Shown here piece by piece: positions 1 to 16,426 of a DNA stretch of 36,137 nt. Position numbers and translations under genes: made by a program. Numbering within the stretch: position 1 is the stretch's first letter; the number at the start of each line of letters is the position of its first letter. A model generated the notes under the pieces. It did not search any database. It was not told where the DNA came from and saw nothing but the letters and a program-made list of their open reading frames with translations. Source of the stretch: Deltaproteobacteria bacterium (GTDB lineage: Bacteria; Desulfobacterota; Syntrophobacteria; Syntrophobacterales; Syntrophobacteraceae); NCBI GenBank assembly GCA_021777755.1, contig JAJYDE010000042.1, positions 1-36,137 on the forward strand, given 5' to 3'.

Positions 1-868
1 GGGTCATTCCGCCCTTGCCGGGAAACACAAGGTCGGAAGTAACCGGCAAGCCCCGGATAGCATCAAGTGCCTGTGTGCTCACAGCCAAAGTGATGGTCTT
101 CCCGCTCTTGGGGTTTCTGAGAGTCACGGTGGCGCGTTCGAGATCAATATCATTCCAGGCAAGCCGCATAAGCTCCCCGCGCCGAAAGCCCGTGAGCATG
201 GCGAATCGGACGAATGCCGCCGATTCTCGACAAGGCCAGTTATCCAGGGTATCGAGCAGCCTTCGCGTCTCTTCCTCTGTGAGCATTTCAGTCTTCTGGT
301 TATCGACCTTGGGCATGGACACGGAATCAACCGGGTTCTTGCCGTCATACAGGTTCCACTTTCTCGCAAGGTTGAAGAGGCGCCTGACGATGACAAGCTG
401 GTGCTTTATGGTCTGCGCTGCGAAGGGTGTCCCGCGCGAACTCTTGCCTTTCTTGAGTTCGCTTTTCATCTTCTCGACATCAAGAGCGGTAATGTCGGCA
501 AGGGCTTTCGAACCGAAGCGCGGTTCAATGTGCGCCCGGTAGTAATATTCGTCGTCCTTCCACGACTTCTTGTGTTCTTTGGCCCAAGGCAGGTACTTTC
601 CCCACACGTCCGCCAGGGTGAGCGGCTTTCCCTGCATCCTGTGCTCGGAAATGTCGAATTCGCCCCGGACCAGATCGGACTTTAAAGCCGCTTCGACTTC
701 GCGGGCAATGGTGAGGTTGTCCACAATCCGATTTGCCCGGCGTCCCTTGCTTGAAACACTGACTCGATACTTGCGGTCGCGTCCGAAGGGCTTCCCGCAT
801 TTCGTGCATTTCTTCGAATCCAGGGAGCAGCTATTTCGACATTCCGAACAGTAGATTTGAATCGCCAT
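1..868 (-). CDS. Tyrosine-type site-specific integrase (C-terminus cut off by window edge)
   Basis: Phage or genomic-island integrase of the tyrosine recombinase family, which catalyses att-site strand exchange. Translation from the ATG at 868 gives 289 residues with no stop before the window edge. The N-terminus has a zinc-ribbon-like pattern, C7xxC10 and C21xxC24. A SAM-like core-binding region follows (about residues 75-160), then the start of the catalytic domain with the first catalytic Arg, R229, in TGFRRGEL. The HxxR, second His and Tyr motifs lie beyond the window. The start sits 3' of three direct repeats and about 170 bp from a truncated tRNA-Arg, the usual arrangement of an integrase beside its attachment site. 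The family call is firm; the type of element (prophage or island) cannot be told from here. Confidence 0.93.
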   Translation of the reverse strand, partial: MAIQIYCSECRNSCSLDSKKCTKCGKPFGRDRKYRVSVSSKGRRANRIVDNLTIAREVEAALKSDLVRGEFDISEHRMQGKPLTLADVWGKYLPWAKEHKKSWKDDEYYYRAHIEPRFGSKALADITALDVEKMKSELKKGKSSRGTPFAAQTIKHQLVIVRRLFNLARKWNLYDGKNPVDSVSMPKVDNQKTEMLTEEETRRLLDTLDNWPCRESAAFVRFAMLTGFRRGELMRLAWNDIDLERATVTLRNPKSGKTITLAVSTQALDAIRGLPVTSDLVFPGKGGMT

Positions 869-887
869 GGCCGGACCTCCATTCCCC

Positions 888-919
888 TTGCGTGCATTCT
901 TGCGTGCATATTGCGTGCA
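888..919. repeat. Three direct copies of TTGCGTGCA upstream of the integrase
   Basis: The 9-mer TTGCGTGCA occurs exactly at 888-896, 900-908 and 911-919, with periods of 12 and 11 bp, about one helical turn. The array lies between the integrase start (868) and the tRNA-fragment att site (from 1036). By analogy with lambda-type systems it may be an arm-type integrase site, an excisionase site or an operator for int. The repeat is seen directly; the role is inferred. Confidence 0.75.
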
Positions 920-1035
920 CGGATTCGGATTAAACCGTCAAAAACCATCCCGACAGGTAACGCCATGATTACCCGGAAACCGTTGTTATGTCAAGGTTTA
1001 TCTCAAGGAAGGAAAAACTGTCAAAAGGTATTTAG

Positions 1036-1082
1036 ACGGACTTCTAATCCGTAGGTCGAGCGTTCGAATCGCCCCAGGCGTA
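1036..1082 (+). other. Attachment-site scar: 3' half of tRNA-Arg(UCU)
   Basis: The sequence contains a perfect anticodon arm, ACGGA-CTTCTAA-TCCGT (1036-1052, anticodon TCT at 1043-1045). A variable segment follows, then a T-arm with loop TTCGAAT (1063-1069) and a CAGGCGT acceptor strand (1075-1081). No D-arm or 5' acceptor strand precedes it, so this is not a complete tRNA gene. Integration into the 3' end of a tRNA leaves exactly such a duplicate at the distal end of an element. The integrase on the left and a tRNA-style terminator on the right support that reading. The intact tRNA should lie to the left of this window. Confidence 0.8.
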
Positions 1083-1092
1083 CTAACAAAAG

Positions 1093-1130
1093 AAAGGACT
1101 TGACGAACTTTTCGTCAAGTCCTTTTTCTT
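1093..1130 (+). terminator. Strong intrinsic terminator after the tRNA-Arg fragment
   Basis: A perfect 12-bp stem, GGACTTGACGAA (1096-1107) with TTCGTCAAGTCC (1111-1122), has a 3-nt loop and is followed by TTTTTCTTT. A-rich flanking bases extend the pairing, so it may work in both directions. It lies just after the tRNA fragment and is most simply the original terminator of the host tRNA gene. Confidence 0.85.
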
Positions 1131-4203: not shown

Positions 4204-6228
4204 TCAGTGATCCGTTGCGTGTTGGGGGTGACCTTTATCGCCATTTTGGGATTTTTTCCCCGCGGGCGTCTTTCCGCTTGCGGCCCTTTTGGGCTTCACG
4301 GCGCCGGCGGGGGGTTTGGGGTTCTTTTTTTCCGGGGCGCCCTTGGACGCCGCCTTCAACCCTCCGTGCTGCAACTGCTCGAGCTTTACTCTTTCGTAAT
4401 CCTGTTGCGCCTTCTTATCCTTGAAATCAAGCTTTAGTACGGTCTGAAGTTGGGCGGCGGCGGCGCTGTAATTGCCTTGCTTTTCGTAGATATAGGCCGC
4501 AAGGCGGTGGTATTCCTTCTGCTGGGGCTGGAGTCGGACGAGTTGTTCGAGTTCGTGCAGGGCGGACTTTTGGTCGCCAAGCTTTGTGGCCGCTTCCAGA
4601 AGATATTTATGCACGTTGACCGAATTGGGGTTTTGAGCCGCCATGGAGCGGAAAAAAGTCTGCATGCCTTTGTAGTCTTTCTTTTGAGCAAAAGACCTGT
4701 AGAGGGCGTCGAGATTTCCCGAGTCATTGGGGCTAAGCTTTGCGAGCTGGAGGCGAACTCTGGCCTGGCCGTTTGCGTCGTTTGTCTTCTGGTAGACGAC
4801 AAGCAGTTGTTTCAGGCTTTTAGTGTCTTGCGGAGCCAAGGCGACAAGGCTCTTAAGGGGGGCCACGGCTTTGTCGTAGCTTTTCTGCTGAATGTAGAGC
4901 ATCGCCAGATTGAAAAGGTATTTTCGGTTATTTGGATCGGCGTGCAGAAGCTTTTGGTAAGCGGCGATTTCGCCGGGCTGATCATTTGTTTTCTGCTCCA
5001 AAGCCACAAGGTTGACAAGTGCCTGTTTGTCGCCGGGGTTTTCCTTGACCATCGTTTCGTAGATGGACTTGGCCCTGCCGAATTTTCCCGCTTTAATGCA
5101 GAGGTCGGCGACCAGCCCAAGGGTCTTCGGGTCGTTGGGGTTTTTTTGCAGGTACTTTTCAAATGCCGCCAGGGCCTCATCGGTCTTGCCGGTGCGCATG
5201 AGGGTCACGGCGAGGTTATACTGCACATCGGAGTTCTGCATCCCGGCATTTTGGGCATCCCGCCAGGCCCGGGCGGCGCCTTGCCAGTCCTTGCGGGCTC
5301 CCGCCAGCTCGGCAATTTCCACCAGGACCTGGGTTCGGAAGGGCTGCGGAAAGTCGCGCACATGCTTTTCAAGAAAACCCTGGGCCTGGCTGACGCTCTT
5401 TTTCTTTTTCAAGTAGTTTAGAAAATCTGCGAAAGTTTGCTTATCGCCGGTCATTTTCATGAGAGCCAGGTAGAGCCGGAGGGCCTCGTTCGGTTTATTC
5501 TCGGCCTGGTAGATCATAAGAAGCTTTTCGGAGATGTCCCGGGATTCTCCGGACTGGTTGATTTCCTTATAGAGCTTTTCGGCTTCCTTATAGTGTTTGA
5601 TATCGAAATAGAGTCCGGCAAGCTGGGTTTTGATGAGTATGTTGGAGCTGTTGTCGGCAAGGGCCTTTTCCAGGTATTCAATTCTCAGATCGAGGTCGGG
5701 AGTCGCGTTGGCCTTGCTCAGCCAGTCCTTGTAGTCGAGTTGGACAAGGAAGGTGACCTTGCCTATCGGCCGGTTCCAGAGCAATACCGTGATGACGAGA
5801 CTCTTGGGTTTTTCAAAGGATTCTCCGGAAAAAAGATCCCTTATGACCATGCCCGGAGGCGTTGTGAGGGGCTTGATATCGACCTCGGGGCTTACGACCC
5901 TGGTCCCCCAGGAGAGCCACCCGTCGGTTTTTACGGCCGTAAGTTGCAGCGTGTCCCTCGGGTTGATCACGACCTGCGAATCGGGAAGCAGGAGCATGTC
6001 CTGCCCGTTATGCAGGAAATTAAGCGCCATGAGCCTGCCGGGAAAGATCTTCCCCTTCGGCAGCAAAAAAAACAAGGCTGCGCCCAAAAGCGCCAATACA
6101 ACCACGCCGATGACAATCGCGCGCCCGTGTCCGGACGACCGCGGTTTTTTCTCCTTCTCCCTTCGACCGCTGTAAAAGGGACCGGCAGACCCATAAGGAT
6201 AACCTCGCCTCGAATTCATCTCAGGCAT
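4204..6228 (-). CDS. Membrane-anchored TPR-repeat protein
   Basis: A 674-residue protein. A basic cytoplasmic N-terminus precedes one transmembrane segment (about residues 37-56). About 130 residues follow with no recognised motif, then a long array of tetratricopeptide repeats (for example VQYNLAVTLMRTGKTDEAL and RKYLFNLAMLYIQQKSYDKA), and a Lys/Pro-rich C-terminal tail. TPR arrays mediate protein-protein contacts; the partner is unknown, and the bulk is probably periplasmic. The ATG at 6228 shares its A with the TGA stop of rluB (TGATG), so translation is probably coupled. A GTG one codon earlier is an alternative. It is the last gene of the large operon. Confidence 0.85.
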   Translation of the reverse strand: MPEMNSRRGYPYGSAGPFYSGRREKEKKPRSSGHGRAIVIGVVVLALLGAALFFLLPKGKIFPGRLMALNFLHNGQDMLLLPDSQVVINPRDTLQLTAVKTDGWLSWGTRVVSPEVDIKPLTTPPGMVIRDLFSGESFEKPKSLVITVLLWNRPIGKVTFLVQLDYKDWLSKANATPDLDLRIEYLEKALADNSSNILIKTQLAGLYFDIKHYKEAEKLYKEINQSGESRDISEKLLMIYQAENKPNEALRLYLALMKMTGDKQTFADFLNYLKKKKSVSQAQGFLEKHVRDFPQPFRTQVLVEIAELAGARKDWQGAARAWRDAQNAGMQNSDVQYNLAVTLMRTGKTDEALAAFEKYLQKNPNDPKTLGLVADLCIKAGKFGRAKSIYETMVKENPGDKQALVNLVALEQKTNDQPGEIAAYQKLLHADPNNRKYLFNLAMLYIQQKSYDKAVAPLKSLVALAPQDTKSLKQLLVVYQKTNDANGQARVRLQLAKLSPNDSGNLDALYRSFAQKKDYKGMQTFFRSMAAQNPNSVNVHKYLLEAATKLGDQKSALHELEQLVRLQPQQKEYHRLAAYIYEKQGNYSAAAAQLQTVLKLDFKDKKAQQDYERVKLEQLQHGGLKAASKGAPEKKNPKPPAGAVKPKRAASGKTPAGKKSQNGDKGHPQHATDH

Positions 6229-6977
6229 CACTCCATGTAAAGATTGGCTTCCTCGTAGATTTTCCGGATTTCCTGCGGGCCGAGCGCTCGATGCCCGCCC
6301 GAGGGCAATTTTCCAAGAACCACCGGCCCGTAGGCTATGCGCCTGATCTTCAAGACCGGATGTCCGACCGCAAGTCCCATGCGCTTGATCTGGCGATTCC
6401 AGCCCTGGTGCAGAGTGATCCGCAGCCAGGCCGAGCCGGGAAGTCGTCCGATCACCTCAACTTCGGCCGGGGCGGTGACGCCTTCTTCGATTCGCACCCC
6501 CCCGCGCAGTTCTTCTATCGCTTTTTTGTCGGGATGTCCCTTTATTTTTACATCATAGACCTTGGTGATTCCATAACGGGGATGCAGGAGCCGATTGGCG
6601 AGTTCTCCATCATTAGTGAGCAGCAGCAAGCCTTCGGCGTCATAGTCCAGCCTGCCCACCGGGAAAACACGCGTTGGCAAACCCGGAAAAAAATCCATAA
6701 CGGTTTTTCGTCCTTGGGGATCGGAAACCGTGGTGACACAACCGGCGGGCTTGTTGAAGGCCAAAAGCACCCGGCCCGGCTTCACGGAGATTTCCTTGTC
6801 ATCAACGCGAACGAGGTCTTTTAAAGGATCGACGCTCGAGCCCAGTTCGGCCCTGCGGCCGTTGACTTCGACTCTACCCTGCCGAATCATTTGCTCGGCG
6901 GCGCGCCTGGATGCGACGCCCGCCTGCGCAAGAAATTTTTGAAGCCGCATTAGGCCCGTGGCCTGAACTTCGCTCAC
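6228..6977 (-). CDS. rluB: 23S rRNA pseudouridine synthase, RsuA/RluB family
   Basis: A 249-residue pseudouridine synthase. An S4 RNA-binding domain occupies about residues 10-60 (MRLQKFLAQAGVASRRAAEQ). The catalytic domain carries the family motif GRLDYDAEGLLLLTNDGEL, whose first Asp is the nucleophile position. RluB modifies helix 89 of 23S rRNA in E. coli; the exact target here (RluB, RluE, RluF or RsuA type) cannot be fixed by eye, but context and length favour RluB. The start is a GTG at 6977; an ATG at 6950 is a plausible alternative. It lies 29 nt after trpS and overlaps the TPR gene at its stop. Confidence 0.88.
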   Translation of the reverse strand: MSEVQATGLMRLQKFLAQAGVASRRAAEQMIRQGRVEVNGRRAELGSSVDPLKDLVRVDDKEISVKPGRVLLAFNKPAGCVTTVSDPQGRKTVMDFFPGLPTRVFPVGRLDYDAEGLLLLTNDGELANRLLHPRYGITKVYDVKIKGHPDKKAIEELRGGVRIEEGVTAPAEVEVIGRLPGSAWLRITLHQGWNRQIKRMGLAVGHPVLKIRRIAYGPVVLGKLPSGGHRALGPQEIRKIYEEANLYME

Positions 6978-7006
6978 CCTGGTCGAAATCCTTTCCCTCC
7001 CCCCGC

Positions 7007-7996
7007 TCAGATGCCGATGGCGCGACGCACAAGCTCCATGGTGGCCGAGGCCTCGCGAGCGGCCCTGGCATTGCCGGCGGCGATAATGTCCCTCAGCCCG
7101 TCCGGGTCGCTTTCAAACTTTGCGCGCCTTTCGCGAACGGGCGCGAGCCGGGCGGCAACGTTACGGATCAATATTTTTTTGCATTCGACGCAACCGATAC
7201 CCGCGCTACGGCACCCGTGGGCGATCTCCTCGATTTCCGAAGCCGAGGAGTAGAGCTTGTGGTAGGCGAAAACAGGGCAAACCTCGGGGTTTCCGGGATC
7301 ATTTCGCCTCACCCTCTGCGGATCGGTCATCATCCTGGAAATTTTTTCAGCTATATCCTTTCCCGAATCGGTGATGAAGATGCAGTTGCCGTAGCTCTTG
7401 CTCATCTTGCGGCCGTCAAGGCCCGGAAGCACGGGGGCCTCGGTGAGCAGGCCGTCGGGTTCGGGAAAAATTTCGGATTTATAGAGGTAGTTGAACCTGC
7501 GGGCGATTTCCCTGGTCAGCTCGATGTGCGGCAGTTGGTCCTTGCCCACGGGTACGCCGTTGGCGCGGTAAATAATTATGTCCGCGGCCTGGAGCACCGG
7601 ATAGCCGAGAAACCCGTAGGTCCCGAGGTCTTTGTGCTCCAATTGCTGCTGTTGTTCCTTGTAGGTGGGATTGCGCTCAAGCCAGGCGAGCGGTGTGATC
7701 ATTGCGAGCAGAAGATATAGCTCGGCGTGCTCCTTGATCTGCGACTGAACAAAGATCGTCGAGCGCCGCGGGTCGAGACCCGCGCTCAACCAGTCGAGCA
7801 CCATTTCACGAGAGTTTTCGCCTATATTTCCCGGCGAGGCGTAGTCGGTGGTAAGCGCGTGCCAGTCGGCCACGAAGTAAAAACATTCGTACTGGTCCTG
7901 AAGTCTGATCCAGTTTTCCAGGGCGCCGTGGAGGTTGCCCAGATGAAGGCGCCCGGTGGGGCGCATGCCGCTAAGTACTCGTTTCCTATCAGCCAT
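7007..7996 (-). CDS. trpS: Tryptophanyl-tRNA synthetase
   Basis: A 329-residue class I aminoacyl-tRNA synthetase that charges tRNA-Trp. The HIGH-type motif is LHLGNLHG (from residue 17), and the KMSKS loop is exact at 197-201 (DGRKMSKSYGN). The length matches bacterial TrpRS. The ATG at 7996 follows AAAGGAG. It sits between the site-2 protease (28 nt upstream) and rluB (29 nt downstream). In many relatives scpA and scpB lie between trpS and rluB; they are absent here. The matching tRNA-Trp gene lies at 16136 in the same window. Confidence 0.97.
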   Translation of the reverse strand: MADRKRVLSGMRPTGRLHLGNLHGALENWIRLQDQYECFYFVADWHALTTDYASPGNIGENSREMVLDWLSAGLDPRRSTIFVQSQIKEHAELYLLLAMITPLAWLERNPTYKEQQQQLEHKDLGTYGFLGYPVLQAADIIIYRANGVPVGKDQLPHIELTREIARRFNYLYKSEIFPEPDGLLTEAPVLPGLDGRKMSKSYGNCIFITDSGKDIAEKISRMMTDPQRVRRNDPGNPEVCPVFAYHKLYSSASEIEEIAHGCRSAGIGCVECKKILIRNVAARLAPVRERRAKFESDPDGLRDIIAAGNARAAREASATMELVRRAIGI

Positions 7997-8663: not shown

Positions 8664-11399
8664 TTAACAAAAATTCCGCCACTCCGATTTCGCAGCCTCT
8701 GAAAACAGCTCGGGCCATGTGGACAGGAGATAATTAATCTCCTCGTGGCGACTCTGAACCAACTTGTCGATTCTTGCATCCAGGAGTTCGTCGAGCAGCC
8801 GGCGATAAATGGGGCCGGGGGGTACCCCCATTGCCTTCAGATCCTTTCCCTTCAACTCGGTTCGGGTATTCCTGTACCTGTGGAAAAAATAGCTCACAGC
8901 TTTTCGGATCGCTTCCTTTTCGGCTCTTCCCATGAGGAAAAGCAATTCCTCGGCCCTGAACGGTAGAAGCACCCGGTAGACTTCACTGGGTTTTCGCCTG
9001 GACAGATCGGGAAAAAAAGACTTGAGCAACCTGCCGGTGTGTTCCAGGGTCCAGAGCAGCCGGTCGCGCTGGTTTTCGGATAAAAGGAGCCGGTCGCACG
9101 CCTTGACCACTTGTTCGCGGGCAAGGTTTGAAAAAAGCCCGAGAAGGTATACCTGCCATCGTTCGAGCGGTTCGTCAAGAAAACTCAGCCGATACCAGGA
9201 AATGACCTCTCGCAGCCTGCCGAAGATCTCCTCCATTTTCCTGTCGAAATTGATTTGGGCGGACAGCGCGGCCATGACACCGAAGTCGGCCATTCTGCGA
9301 AGTGCCGGCAAGGGATCGTCTTCTTCCAAAATGAGCGCTGTTTCATGAAAAAGGCGTCGGCCCCCGAGCTTTTCAATGAGCCCCATGCGCACCGCATTAC
9401 GAATGAGCGAGGCGGTCTGCTTTCCCAGTCGGAAGCCGAAGCGCTGCTCGAACCGAATGGCCCTGAGAATCCGGGTCGGGTCTTCGATAAGGCTGAGGTT
9501 GTGAAGGACCCGAATGATTTTGTCTTTTATATCGCGCTGGCCGTTGAAAAAATCTATCAGCTCACCGAACTCGTCGGGGTTTAAGGCGATAGCCAGGGTG
9601 TTTATCGTAAAATCCCTGCGGTAGAGATCCATTTTAAGCGAGCTGAATTCGACGATGGGCAGGGCCGCCGGGTGCTGATAGTATTCGAACCTTGCCGAAG
9701 CGACATCGACGGTCTGCCCGTCGGGAAAGACCAGCATCGCCGTGCTGAATTTTCTGTGCAGCTTGATCTTGACCTTGTATTTTTCCGAAAAAGCCCTGGC
9801 GAATTCGATCGCGTTTCCCTCGACCACGATGTCCAGGTCGAAATTGGGGCAGCGAAGGAGCAGATCGCGGACAAAGCCGCCCACCGCAAAAGCGCGAAAT
9901 CCCAGGTTTTCAGCAAGCTGCCCGAATTCTTTGAGCATTCCGATAAGACTACGGGGAAGCTGTTCGGAGAGCACCGAGCGGATGCTTTTCCTCTTAGACC
10001 AGTGGATCTGTGAGTACTCGCCGGCGGGCGGCCTTTGCTCGCTGTGGTCGCTGCGCATCAAATCCAGCAGATCGCGCCGGGTTATAACACCCAGCACTTT
10101 CCCCTCGCCCACCACGGGCAGAATGCGCTGATGGAGTTCGACCAGGAAGGTCTGGATTTCCACAAGGCCAGCTTCGGGGCTTACAGAGGCAAAATCGGTA
10201 TTCATGAATTCAGCCACGGTCTGCTTCTGGAGACCGTGGAAAAGGGCTTTTTCGAGCACCTGCCGGGTGATCAGTCCAACCAGGATGTCGTTTTCAAGCA
10301 CCGGCATCGCGTTAATGTTGTAGCGCACCATGGTGAGGTGGGCCTCGGCGATTTCCACCGCTGGTTCGGTATGAATCGCGGGACTGGTCATGAGGTTTTC
10401 GGCGGTCGGATAGGGATGGATGTGCCGGCGGAGCACATCGACGAGTTTTTCTTCGGTCTGTACGAGGGTCAAATCCTTTATGCTCGCGGAGGCCGCGGTC
10501 GCATGCCCGCCTCCCCCGAAGATCGAGGCAACCGTTGCAACGTTTACCTCGGGAAGCCGACTCCTGGCCACCAGGTAGACCCGGTCGTCCATGCACGCAA
10601 GGGCGAACACCACGTCGAGGCTCTCGATATCGCGCAACTTGTGGACAAGAACGGCGAAATCTCCCACGTACCTGTCAACCGACACGGAAGTCAGACACAC
10701 CTCCACGCCGTTGACGTTGATTTTTTTGGCCGACTGAATCAATTCGTTCAGCAGTGTGATCTGTTCGGCGCTCAGTTCCTGGCTCACCATGTCGGAGACC
10801 ACGTTCAGATTGGCCCCGGATTTTAGCAAAAAGGCGGCGGCCTCGAAATCCTCGGGCGTGGTGCTGCTGAAGGTAAAAGACCCGGTGTCCTCAAAGATGC
10901 CAAGGCTCATGATGGTGGCCTCTTCCGAAGAGACCTCGATGCCGCGCTCCATGAAAAGCCCGGTGAGAAGAGTCACCGTCGAACCCACGTTTTTTACAAT
11001 CGAAAGATCCGCTTTCACGTCGTCTTCGGCATCGGGATGGTGATCGTAGACATGCACCTCCAGGCCGGGCTTTTTGAGAATATCGACAAACTTGCCGATT
11101 CGGGACGCTTGTCGCGTGTCAACCAGAATGAGCCGGGTAACCTCTTCGACCTCGATGTCTCGAAGGCGGGTGAAACCGTAGATATAAACCGTGGACTTGA
11201 TGAAGTATTCCCGGAGAGTACGTTCCTGGGAGCCGGGAAATACCAGAAGGGCTCCGGGATAGAGCTTTTTTGCCGCAATCATCGATCCCATTGCGTCAAA
11301 GTCGGCGTTTATGTGGGTGGTAATGACTTCCATGGCACTCATTTCCGGCCGGACTGTTCCCGCCCCCCGGCCGTTGACTTCCGTTTGTCCGCTGCTCAT
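8664..11399 (-). CDS. DHH phosphoesterase - CBS pair - tRNA nucleotidyltransferase fusion
   Basis: A 911-residue multidomain protein. It has an N-terminal DHH domain (HINADFDAMGS at 29-39, LVDTR at 92-96, DHH at 119-121), a DHHA1 GGGGHATAA motif (295-303), two CBS domains (about 333-450) and a class II poly(A) polymerase/CCA-adding domain (GGFVRD at 507-512, DLD at 521-523, then RRDFTINTLA and RILRAIRFEQRFGF). The head carries metal-dependent phosphoesterase motifs and the tail adds nucleotides to tRNA or RNA ends. CBS pairs usually sense adenine nucleotides. The fusion is a known architecture in this phylum. The ATG at 11399 overlaps the xer stop (ATGA); a 74-residue extension upstream would run through xer and is rejected. 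Confidence 0.92.
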   Translation of the reverse strand: MSSGQTEVNGRGAGTVRPEMSAMEVITTHINADFDAMGSMIAAKKLYPGALLVFPGSQERTLREYFIKSTVYIYGFTRLRDIEVEEVTRLILVDTRQASRIGKFVDILKKPGLEVHVYDHHPDAEDDVKADLSIVKNVGSTVTLLTGLFMERGIEVSSEEATIMSLGIFEDTGSFTFSSTTPEDFEAAAFLLKSGANLNVVSDMVSQELSAEQITLLNELIQSAKKINVNGVEVCLTSVSVDRYVGDFAVLVHKLRDIESLDVVFALACMDDRVYLVARSRLPEVNVATVASIFGGGGHATAASASIKDLTLVQTEEKLVDVLRRHIHPYPTAENLMTSPAIHTEPAVEIAEAHLTMVRYNINAMPVLENDILVGLITRQVLEKALFHGLQKQTVAEFMNTDFASVSPEAGLVEIQTFLVELHQRILPVVGEGKVLGVITRRDLLDLMRSDHSEQRPPAGEYSQIHWSKRKSIRSVLSEQLPRSLIGMLKEFGQLAENLGFRAFAVGGFVRDLLLRCPNFDLDIVVEGNAIEFARAFSEKYKVKIKLHRKFSTAMLVFPDGQTVDVASARFEYYQHPAALPIVEFSSLKMDLYRRDFTINTLAIALNPDEFGELIDFFNGQRDIKDKIIRVLHNLSLIEDPTRILRAIRFEQRFGFRLGKQTASLIRNAVRMGLIEKLGGRRLFHETALILEEDDPLPALRRMADFGVMAALSAQINFDRKMEEIFGRLREVISWYRLSFLDEPLERWQVYLLGLFSNLAREQVVKACDRLLLSENQRDRLLWTLEHTGRLLKSFFPDLSRRKPSEVYRVLLPFRAEELLFLMGRAEKEAIRKAVSYFFHRYRNTRTELKGKDLKAMGVPPGPIYRRLLDELLDARIDKLVQSRHEEINYLLSTWPELFSEAAKSEWRNFC

Positions 11400-12280
11400 G
11401 GCCTCGGGTGATACCGGGAGTGTATCTCTTTTAGGCGCTCCCTGGCCACATGGGTGTAAATCTGGGTCGTCGAAATATCGGAGTGGCCGAGCATTATCTG
11501 CAAAGACCGAAGATCCGCGCCGTTTTCCAGAAGGTGTGTGGCGAACGAATGCCTCAGCATGTGCGGAGTGATGTTGACCGCGATACCGGCTTTTAGCGCA
11601 CAGGTTTTGATAATCTTCCAAACCCCCTGCCTGGAAATCCCCTCACCGCGGGAGTTTAAAAAGATCTGCGCGGCAAAGCCGCCTTTCAACAGAAGGCGCC
11701 GTGCGCTTTGCAGGTAATCTCTCAGCCACTGCGCGGCAATTTCCCCCATGGGCACAAGCCGCTCCTTGTCACCCTTTCCATGCACTCTCACGTAGCCGGG
11801 GTCGAGCGCGACCTGGCTCACCCGCAACTCGGAGAGTTCGCTCACCCTCAGGCCGCATGCGTAGAGCAGTTCGAACATGGCCCGGTCTCTCAGGCCCAGG
11901 GGCTTGGAGACATCGGGGCCGGCGAGCAACGCCCCGATCTGGGCCGAGGTCAGCGTTTTGGGCAGCTGAGGGCCAAGTTTGGGGAAATGGACCAGTGAGG
12001 CGGGGTTGGAACCGATATGGCCCGTCTTCAGCAAAAATCCGAAAAAGGACCGAAGCGCGGCCAGCCTTCGAGCCCTGGAGCGGGCGCAAAGCGATATCCC
12101 CATACTTTGAATATACCCGCTTATGCTGGTTTGGCAAACCTCCCGCCAATTCGAAAGGCCCGATTCCTTCAAATATGCGCTGAAATGGGCGAGATCGGCC
12201 GAATAGGCCGCGATCGTGTTGGCACTAAGTCCTCGCTCGACCGCCAGGTGAATCAAAAAGAGGTCGATGTGCTTTTCCAT
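11396..12280 (-). CDS. XerC/XerD-type tyrosine recombinase
   Basis: A 294-residue recombinase with an N-terminal SAM-like core-binding domain (1-90) and a full catalytic set: R145 in LLYACGLRVSELS, K169 or K172 in HGKGDKERL, H240 and R243 in TPHMLRHSFATH, H266 in LGHSDISTTQIYTH, and nucleophile Y275. Length and motifs fit the chromosomal dimer-resolution recombinases; operon position suggests XerD, but XerC cannot be excluded. It is a housekeeping gene, unlike the integrase at the left edge. The ATG at 12280 lies 17 nt after the carboxyltransferase stop. Confidence 0.9.
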   Translation of the reverse strand: MEKHIDLFLIHLAVERGLSANTIAAYSADLAHFSAYLKESGLSNWREVCQTSISGYIQSMGISLCARSRARRLAALRSFFGFLLKTGHIGSNPASLVHFPKLGPQLPKTLTSAQIGALLAGPDVSKPLGLRDRAMFELLYACGLRVSELSELRVSQVALDPGYVRVHGKGDKERLVPMGEIAAQWLRDYLQSARRLLLKGGFAAQIFLNSRGEGISRQGVWKIIKTCALKAGIAVNITPHMLRHSFATHLLENGADLRSLQIMLGHSDISTTQIYTHVARERLKEIHSRYHPRP

Positions 12281-16135: not shown

Positions 16136-16212
16136 AGGCCAGTAGCTCTAACGGCTAGAGCACCGGACTCCAAATCCGGGGGTTGGGGGTTCGAATCCCT
16201 CCTGGCCTGCCA
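16136..16212 (+). tRNA. tRNA-Trp (anticodon CCA)
   Basis: A complete cloverleaf. The acceptor stem AGGCCAG (16136-16142) pairs perfectly with CTGGCCT (16202-16208). The D-arm is GCTC...GAGC. The anticodon arm is CCGGA-CTCCAAA-TCCGG with anticodon CCA. The T-arm is GGGGG-TTCGAAT-CCCTC with one G-U pair. Discriminator G16209 is followed by an encoded CCA (16210-16212). G is the normal discriminator for bacterial tRNA-Trp. Confidence 0.97.
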
Positions 16213-16222
16213 GGAATTTCAA

Positions 16223-16254
16223 GGGCTTGGCGGGACTGCCGTCGGGTCTTTTTT
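16223..16254 (+). terminator. Intrinsic terminator after tRNA-Trp
   Basis: GGGCTTGGCGG (16223-16233) pairs with CCGTCGGGTCT (16239-16249) over 11 bp if G-U pairs are allowed, with a 5-nt loop, then TTTTT. It lies 11 nt after the tRNA CCA end. The several wobble pairs make it weaker than the terminator at 1093. Confidence 0.55.
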
Positions 16255-16276
16255 CTTTGGTGAGCATACAGTGTGC
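16250..16276 (+). repeat. Post-tRNA sequence block, copy 2
   Basis: TTTTTCTTTGGTG (16250-16262), GCA (16264-16266) and TGTGC (16272-16276) repeat the blocks found after the tRNA-Arg fragment at 1123-1149 with exactly the same spacing. The sequences between the blocks differ. Confidence 0.6.
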
Positions 16277-16426
16277 GCGAATGCGGCTCGAGCCCGTTTT
16301 ACTCGCTCGTGTATCCTTGACCCATCGCCCAGAAAACTCGGTGGCCTTCCCGGTCGAGTGGAACTGACTTGCCGTCTTCAATAAATGAGCGGGTTCATGA
16401 CACCCGCTCTATTCCCGGATAGCTGA

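Follow-up and report, generated by a model that had tools for sequence, protein, structure and literature searches.

Putative doubled arm sites and a zinc-ribbon residue in the integrase family of a small element at tRNA-Arg(UCU)

Described islands and the scar at the window's edge

In the accessible part of the Islander report (PMC4383910), the integration site is centred on the anticodon in 2083 of 3919 islands, and tandem arrays are known. As described there, these islands are bounded by an intact tRNA gene and a same-orientation 3' fragment and carry a tyrosine integrase, and the element discussed here is built likewise. Unlike them, it is small, its integrase family is spread over 12 tRNA species, and of the 28 family members examined 26 have the integrase next to the fragment. 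According to the available portion of PMC10111431, primase belongs to the usual PICI gene set, and a doubled motif is reported for helper-embedded PICIs and not for other PICIs, its two copies facing the same way at 81 and 132 bp from the centre of attP. Our element resembles helper-embedded PICIs in having a doubled motif, placed by our arithmetic approximately 133 and 99 bp from the anticodon, and differs from PICIs as depicted there in that no packaging gene was seen, a short ORF has no Pfam match and the motif sequences are others. Paired arm motifs are already known, this doubled motif being the nearest description that we found in the text available to us.

Other comparisons concern single proteins. 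The P22-like integrase of phage ES18 was the top-ranked phage match (28.8% identity over 89%); in ES18 the attP lies 3' of int, whereas here it lies 5'. The primase of the element resembles the NrS-1 primase-polymerase family in its helix-bundle domain and its match to PDB 6a9w, but stops approximately 50 residues past the helix-bundle, with a separate ATPase gene next to it. Serine integrases possess a DNA-binding zinc-ribbon domain that is thought to bind DNA, as stated in the accessible text of PMC4701971; in contrast, the ribbon described below stands at the N-terminus of an enzyme of another recombinase family, the tyrosine integrases, and would target the arm site. In the part of PMC8138268 available, the arm sites of lambda help to govern insertion versus excision; the word 'zinc' is absent from its main text. 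The zinc ribbon mentioned in the excerpt of PMC10732058 belongs to a different gene, and in the literature covered, outside which most subscription papers fall, no title or abstract deals with a zinc ribbon as the arm-binding domain of a tyrosine integrase.

The window, that is, the whole stretch of 36,137 nucleotides analysed, is contig C28 of a source genome of 103 contigs and 4.2 Mb, and its start is the contig start. As the sequence-only reading had claimed, its left edge holds only the 3' half of a tRNA-Arg(UCU): the 45 bases at 1036-1080 are present once in the window at up to three mismatches (0.00 expected), and the 56 bp at 1036-1091 recur without a mismatch at C14:3760-3705, a repeat longer than the span given in that reading. 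The copy falls within an intact tRNA-Arg(UCU) gene on contig C14 (C14:3787-3713), the sole full-length match found in the source genome (one search scored 14 of 19 candidates). Thus the intact gene that had been predicted does exist, on another contig, and the duplicated tRNA 3' end does form the core repeat. We annotate 1036-1091 on the forward strand as the attR repeat, comprising the tRNA 3' part from the anticodon stem and some bases past the tRNA end. As would be expected of a fragment, the place reaches 25.8 bits with the Rfam tRNA model, whose cut-off is 29, and is not called as a tRNA by ARAGORN. The terminator that had been noted behind the half-tRNA is confirmed as a forward-strand hairpin of 17 pairs with a 3-nt loop and a T run after it (1091-1127; fold of 1028-1130, z -4.65), and the intact tRNA on C14 also has a related terminator behind it. 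The idea of a dispersed terminator family was rejected; three places match at up to three mismatches in the genome, each behind a tRNA or half-tRNA. The first gene past the scar, at 1236-2042 on the reverse strand, encodes a member of the enoyl-CoA hydratase/isomerase family (Pfam ECH_1, 5.7e-46).

On the other side of the scar lies a tyrosine integrase on the reverse strand (1-868; residues 1-289 of approximately 378), with a Phage_integrase match of 3.6e-12 on 2-868 and an N-terminus containing CSECR. It is cut by the window start at position 2, and its last 66 residues are found at C14:2-199. The integrase of a sister element on contig C40 is 77% identical over residues 1-289, and the C14 piece is 85% identical over residues 314-378; close relatives of the C40 enzyme (80-86%) occur in the public MAGs Deltaproteobacteria bacteria DX1.bin82 and WY4.bin13. 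We are highly confident that the window starts inside the right end of an integrated element of approximately 4.8 kb, the product of attP and tRNA-Arg(UCU), with the intact tRNA on the left and the scar on the right.

The position of the integrase at the scar end, also part of the sequence-only reading, proved to be the rule in the family, in that the start codon faces a half-tRNA lying 5' of the gene in 26 of the 28 members. Among the first 16 integrases, from the own-genome, genus and family searches, 15 have a tRNA 3' part approximately 153-219 bp 5' of the start codon, identified by a BLAST comparison with the tRNA genes that the retrieved loci contain; the targets are Arg-UCU, Arg-ACG, Leu-CAG, Trp-CCA, Thr-CGU and Ala-GGC. 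The class and phylum searches gave 11 further integrases, 10 with a half-tRNA read by eye from the anticodon stem-loop, which add Arg-CCU, Lys-CUU, Pro-GGG, Phe-GAA, Met-CAU and Leu-UAA; the partial integrase G130:C77 has a Lys half-tRNA, likewise by eye. The two members lacking a half-tRNA are G023:C688 and G090:C28, the latter of which comes after intact tRNA-Val and tRNA-Asp genes. Where intact tRNA, partial copy and integrase were seen together on a single contig, the integrase is at the scar end (3/3: G001:C64, G015:C1 and C34 of the source genome, whose integrase is only 31% identical). In this family the attP lies 5' of the integrase gene, and so the gene sits beside the scar. The layout is not universal, since a distant integrase (24%) in G002 directly adjoins the intact tRNA-Arg(UCU). 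On a tree of the first integrases, six changes of tRNA target account for six targets. The G015 integrase (6115-7227) has two in-frame TAG codons and is otherwise full length. The window also encodes, at 11396-12280, a second tyrosine recombinase with an N-terminal SAM_1 domain and no link to the element, which we take to be XerC/D-like.

Putative doubled arm sites and the site beyond the scar

Between the integrase start and the half-tRNA, 25 of the 28 members carry a doubled motif of 11-bp period, which we regard as putative arm sites. In the window this is TTGCGTGCA-TA-TTGCGTGCA-CG at 900-921 on the forward strand, starting 143 bp before the anticodon, and the other end of the element, at C14:3644-3661, carries the same motif. 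The conserved right end between arm site and core (922-1035, forward strand) is similar to that of C40 and partly to that of contig C32. Searched by class pattern, the motif was found in 24 of 26 members and in G130:C77, and was absent from G023:C688. Of the 25 anchored members, 18 have the best-scoring start 141-145 bp from the anticodon (ties counted, and G015 with a score of just 6/9), G407 has it at 140 bp, five have it one helical turn further, at 151-153 bp, and G126 has it elsewhere. As background, among 254 host stretches of 260 bp from the window, read on both strands, four hold the CCT pattern, three TRC and none RGT. The left end could be observed for four elements, and each of them has one prefix class at both ends: this one, G001:C64, G015 and G003:C158b, the left end of the last being assigned from a tandem. 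When the repeat itself was scored at 15 right ends, 12 were equalled by no more than 3 of 200 shuffles, while C40 was equalled by 12, C32 by 23 and G015 by 97; at left ends the counts were 0 for C14, 2 for G001:C64, 20 for G003:C158b and 96 for G015. Repeat scoring alone is not decisive at every end.

A second arm-like site, GGTGTGCA-GGC-CCTGTGCA-CGG, lies outside the element at 1131-1153 on the forward strand, and we believe that it is probably the left end of another, lost element, once in tandem with the present one or an earlier user of the tRNA. It is marked by an exact copy of the motif and by its offset: GTGCAN6GTGCACG occurs exactly four times in the genome, at the C14 left end, window 904, window 1135 and C40 (at one mismatch, 16 places against 5 for a reversed control pattern), and the site at 1135-1152 lies 52 nt past the tRNA end, the same offset as that of the C14 left arm. 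It could instead be a mere hairpin behind the terminator, since it is also readable as a terminator-like hairpin and is listed as such, its repeat score is equalled by 29 of 200 shuffles, and no class pattern fits it, its prefixes GGT and CCT belonging to different classes, neither of them the TGC of the present integrase. Given that the other three exact copies of the motif all lie at element ends and that the offset is shared with C14, we consider the hairpin explanation rather unlikely. With this arm-like site to the right of the half-tRNA, the flanking DNA may not be virgin host sequence. Half-tRNAs in tandem are seen at C40 and G003:C158.

Elsewhere in the window, at 16136-16300, a terminator of this kind stands behind a tRNA-Trp, together with a doubled arm-like site in degenerate form (GGTGAGCA..AGTGTGCG). 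The window was found to hold no partial copy of this tRNA, the best other match being the Arg half at 76.7%; the 3' site of this tRNA is possibly another left-end scar.

Zinc-ribbon residue 11 and the arm prefix

Zinc binding by the N-terminal ribbon of the integrase is predicted from pairs of CxxC and from weak Pfam zinc-ribbon matches below the cut-off. In the predicted structure, from which we drew, with little weight, on the first 60 residues alone (pLDDT of 68-85 by block), strands at 3-6, 33-40 and 43-49 precede a helix at 52-64, an arrangement consistent with a zinc ribbon followed by an AP2-like sheet, AP2 being our own reading of the strands and helix. The model as a whole is weak (pLDDT 64.8); with it, Foldseek matched the integrase to lambda Int (1z1b) at 1.1e-8, but at a TM of 0.32.

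The residue after the first CxxC, residue 11, tracks the first three bases of the arm motif: lysine goes with RGT, arginine with TRC and tyrosine or phenylalanine with CCT, in 24 of 24 unambiguous cases, with G035, which fits two patterns, as an extra. As first written, from 15 members, the rule paired R to TTGCG, K to GGTGT and Y to CCTGT. Among 12 later members, nine had R, K or Y together with a pattern-found motif and all nine agree, one of them (G130:C77) being a near copy of G059; one more has F with the CCT class, and G407 and G126 have no strict motif. G035 (GGTGC) and G158 (AGTGG) fit only patterns that were loosened later, and G035 also fits TRC. In a set of 26 rows, 23 fit exactly one pattern and 23/23 agree, G035 fits two and two rows fit none; with G035 counted as RGT the agreement is 24/24, and the best of 20,000 shuffles reached 18. 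G002 has two ribbons, which carry R and K in that order, and its first ribbon was the one scored.

The rows came in part from the class and phylum searches, one of which took 395 genomes drawn from a larger group, with limited candidates scored per genome in both. Its 38 rows outside the source genome were divided into 11 for the arm-site set, 18 checked for a zinc ribbon, which was absent in all 18 (L163 being a C-terminal piece only), and 9 left out (G126:C3, G126:C16, G282:C140, G394:C150, G060:C116, G060:C83, G090:C68, a second G160 place and G183:C2). Also left out of the set were G003:C231 (41%) and the end piece G003:C347.

When all 342 alignment columns were scanned, column 11 came first (z 13.0, MI/H 1.00, from label shuffles that ignore relatedness), followed by columns 6, 48 and 46, all N-terminal. 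That the link reflects shared ancestry and not DNA reading is unlikely in our view, even though these z-scores take no account of relatedness and the relatedness-corrected pairs are few: the best column past residue 75 reaches only z 3.3, and the supported independent pairs, taken from a tree built without the first 75 residues, all go the same way (K versus the rest 5/5 concordant, p 0.0625; R 4/4 and Y/F 4/4, p 0.125 each). Furthermore, R, K and Y all occur within a single clade, whose members are 77-86% identical to the C40 enzyme, and each residue goes with its own motif there. The tree requires 11 changes of residue class and likewise 11 of motif class. When the columns were ranked against the remaining bases of the half-site, column 39 came first (z 4.7), not much higher than core columns at 3.6, and arginine at position 37 goes with CCA in 4/4 cases versus 0/20, a hand count found after the fact.

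The pairing of residue and arm is a correlation, and suggests that a single residue may predict which repeats an integrase reads. We consider it fairly likely that the zinc ribbon reads the first three bases of the half-site, with residue 11 as the switch, and the AP2-like sheet the rest, and that arm module and core target change independently, so that close relatives moved among twelve tRNA genes while keeping or co-changing their arm addresses; that G035 fits two patterns slightly lowers the odds for DNA reading by residue 11.

Extent, cargo and meaning of the element

The element was expected to extend to the left of the window, and the integrase reading frame does go on at C14, where the exact repeat recurs. 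The 70-bp gap between C14 and the window corresponds only to C40:1753-1822, and both of its sides match C40 exactly, over 92 and 50 bp; we attribute the assembly break to this repeat common to two elements. The distance between the core repeats would be approximately 4.8 kb, made up of 3704 bp on C14, the 70-bp gap and 1035 bp in the window. C14 and the window thus appear to be two ends of one element, on a joining of contigs that we infer. The contig repeat could in principle join C14 to C40 and C40 to the window; the matching cores and the arm motif, identical at C14 and window 904-921 and different from those of C40 and C32, argue otherwise. A half-tRNA left as an old scar by some event with no relation to the adjoining integrase, C14 and the window being ends of two different elements, is most improbable, for the 56-bp repeat is exact, the integrase frame goes on over the gap and the C14 and 904-921 motifs are identical and unlike those of C40 and C32, against which stand the extra arm-like site at 1135-1152, suggestive of more than one user of tRNA-Arg(UCU), and the two tandem half-tRNAs of C40. 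No excision product of the element was seen.

Intact tRNA-Arg(UCU) is present in all 10 congeners examined, with a second core copy in one of the 10, four of these stretches reaching only 1.3-2.5 kb downstream and none having the same flanks. Neither the enoyl-CoA hydratase nor the PRC-barrel flank gene was found in the fetched congener tRNA-Arg loci, and none of these loci showed an empty site between those flanks. Matches to the hydratase at 1e-60 occur in 6 of 11 genus genomes, the source genome included, and ARAGORN found no tRNA gene at three longer hydratase loci (G001, G008 and G005). Viral contigs gave four integrase loci, 25-28% identical, and matches to the integrase occurred in 1646 phage and 3254 plasmid records, every best place being below 60% identity.

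Other arrangements of this kind are visible in the source genome. C40 1-7298 holds two copies of a half-tRNA-Arg in tandem, each behind an integrase (the second partial), and its second stretch encodes a PLD-domain protein; no intact tRNA-Arg(ACG) was matched from the C40 copies among those of the genome's tRNAs that were read. At tRNA-Leu(CAG), an element spans C35 and C32, whose end and start overlap by 127 exact bp; it is flanked by a 593-bp repeat with copies 95.6% alike, and a HicA/HicB pair adjoins its integrase. At C10 2565-5962, a tRNA-Arg(CCU) has partial copies of its 3' part at two places downstream, one 1.1 kb away (97.6%) and one 3.3 kb away (100%), perhaps a decayed tandem.

From the scar end, the gene order is integrase, MerR-like gene, 68-residue ORF, NrS-1-type primase and ATPase. 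The MerR-like match (1.1e-3) is below the model cut-off, and the 68-residue ORF has no Pfam or PHROG match. The primase (349 aa) is of the NrS-1 kind, with matches to the helix-bundle domain at 5e-25, to PHROG DNA primase at 4.9e-86 and to PDB primases such as 6a9w at 2.8e-45; the ATPase (264 aa) has weak DnaB/AAA matches below cut-offs. The end of the primase gene contains, at C14:2140-2289, iteron-like tandem repeats built on TTTGCAACCT, and our guess is that they are a replication origin. No capsid, packaging or conjugation gene was found among these five scanned ORFs, some small ORFs lying outside the scan, and helper-mediated transfer is therefore only a guess. With an intact tRNA at one end, a same-orientation 3' fragment at the other and a tyrosine integrase inside, given the contig joining that we propose, the locus has the make-up of an island; the integrase together with a primase/replication module is PICI-like, and at approximately 4.8 kb with no conjugation genes among the scanned ORFs it does not qualify as an integrative conjugative element. 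Taken alone, it is an ordinary small tRNA-integrated island.

We propose the following model. The tyrosine integrase would recombine attP, comprising the tRNA-Arg(UCU) 3' part and terminator, with the chromosomal gene, the crossover probably lying at the anticodon stem-loop. The element's copy would rebuild an intact tRNA at the left end, on C14, and the resident 3' part would be displaced, ending up at the right end, where it forms the scar (1036-1091). With attP 5' of its gene, the integrase would come to adjoin the scar and read towards the intact tRNA. The paired arm sites, spaced by 11 bp, would flank the core on both sides and are probably bound by the zinc ribbon and AP2-like sheet. Finally, with an NrS-1-type primase, an ATPase and an iteron-like cluster, the element probably replicates after excision.

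The new part of this work is the pairing of arm site and zinc-ribbon residue, which may surprise a specialist. We know of no way to predict the arm sites of tyrosine integrases from sequence. If the one-residue zinc-ribbon rule is true, arm sites would become predictable and the prediction directly testable. Furthermore, the family is a natural series of close integrases on many tRNA targets, useful for questions of how integrases switch target.
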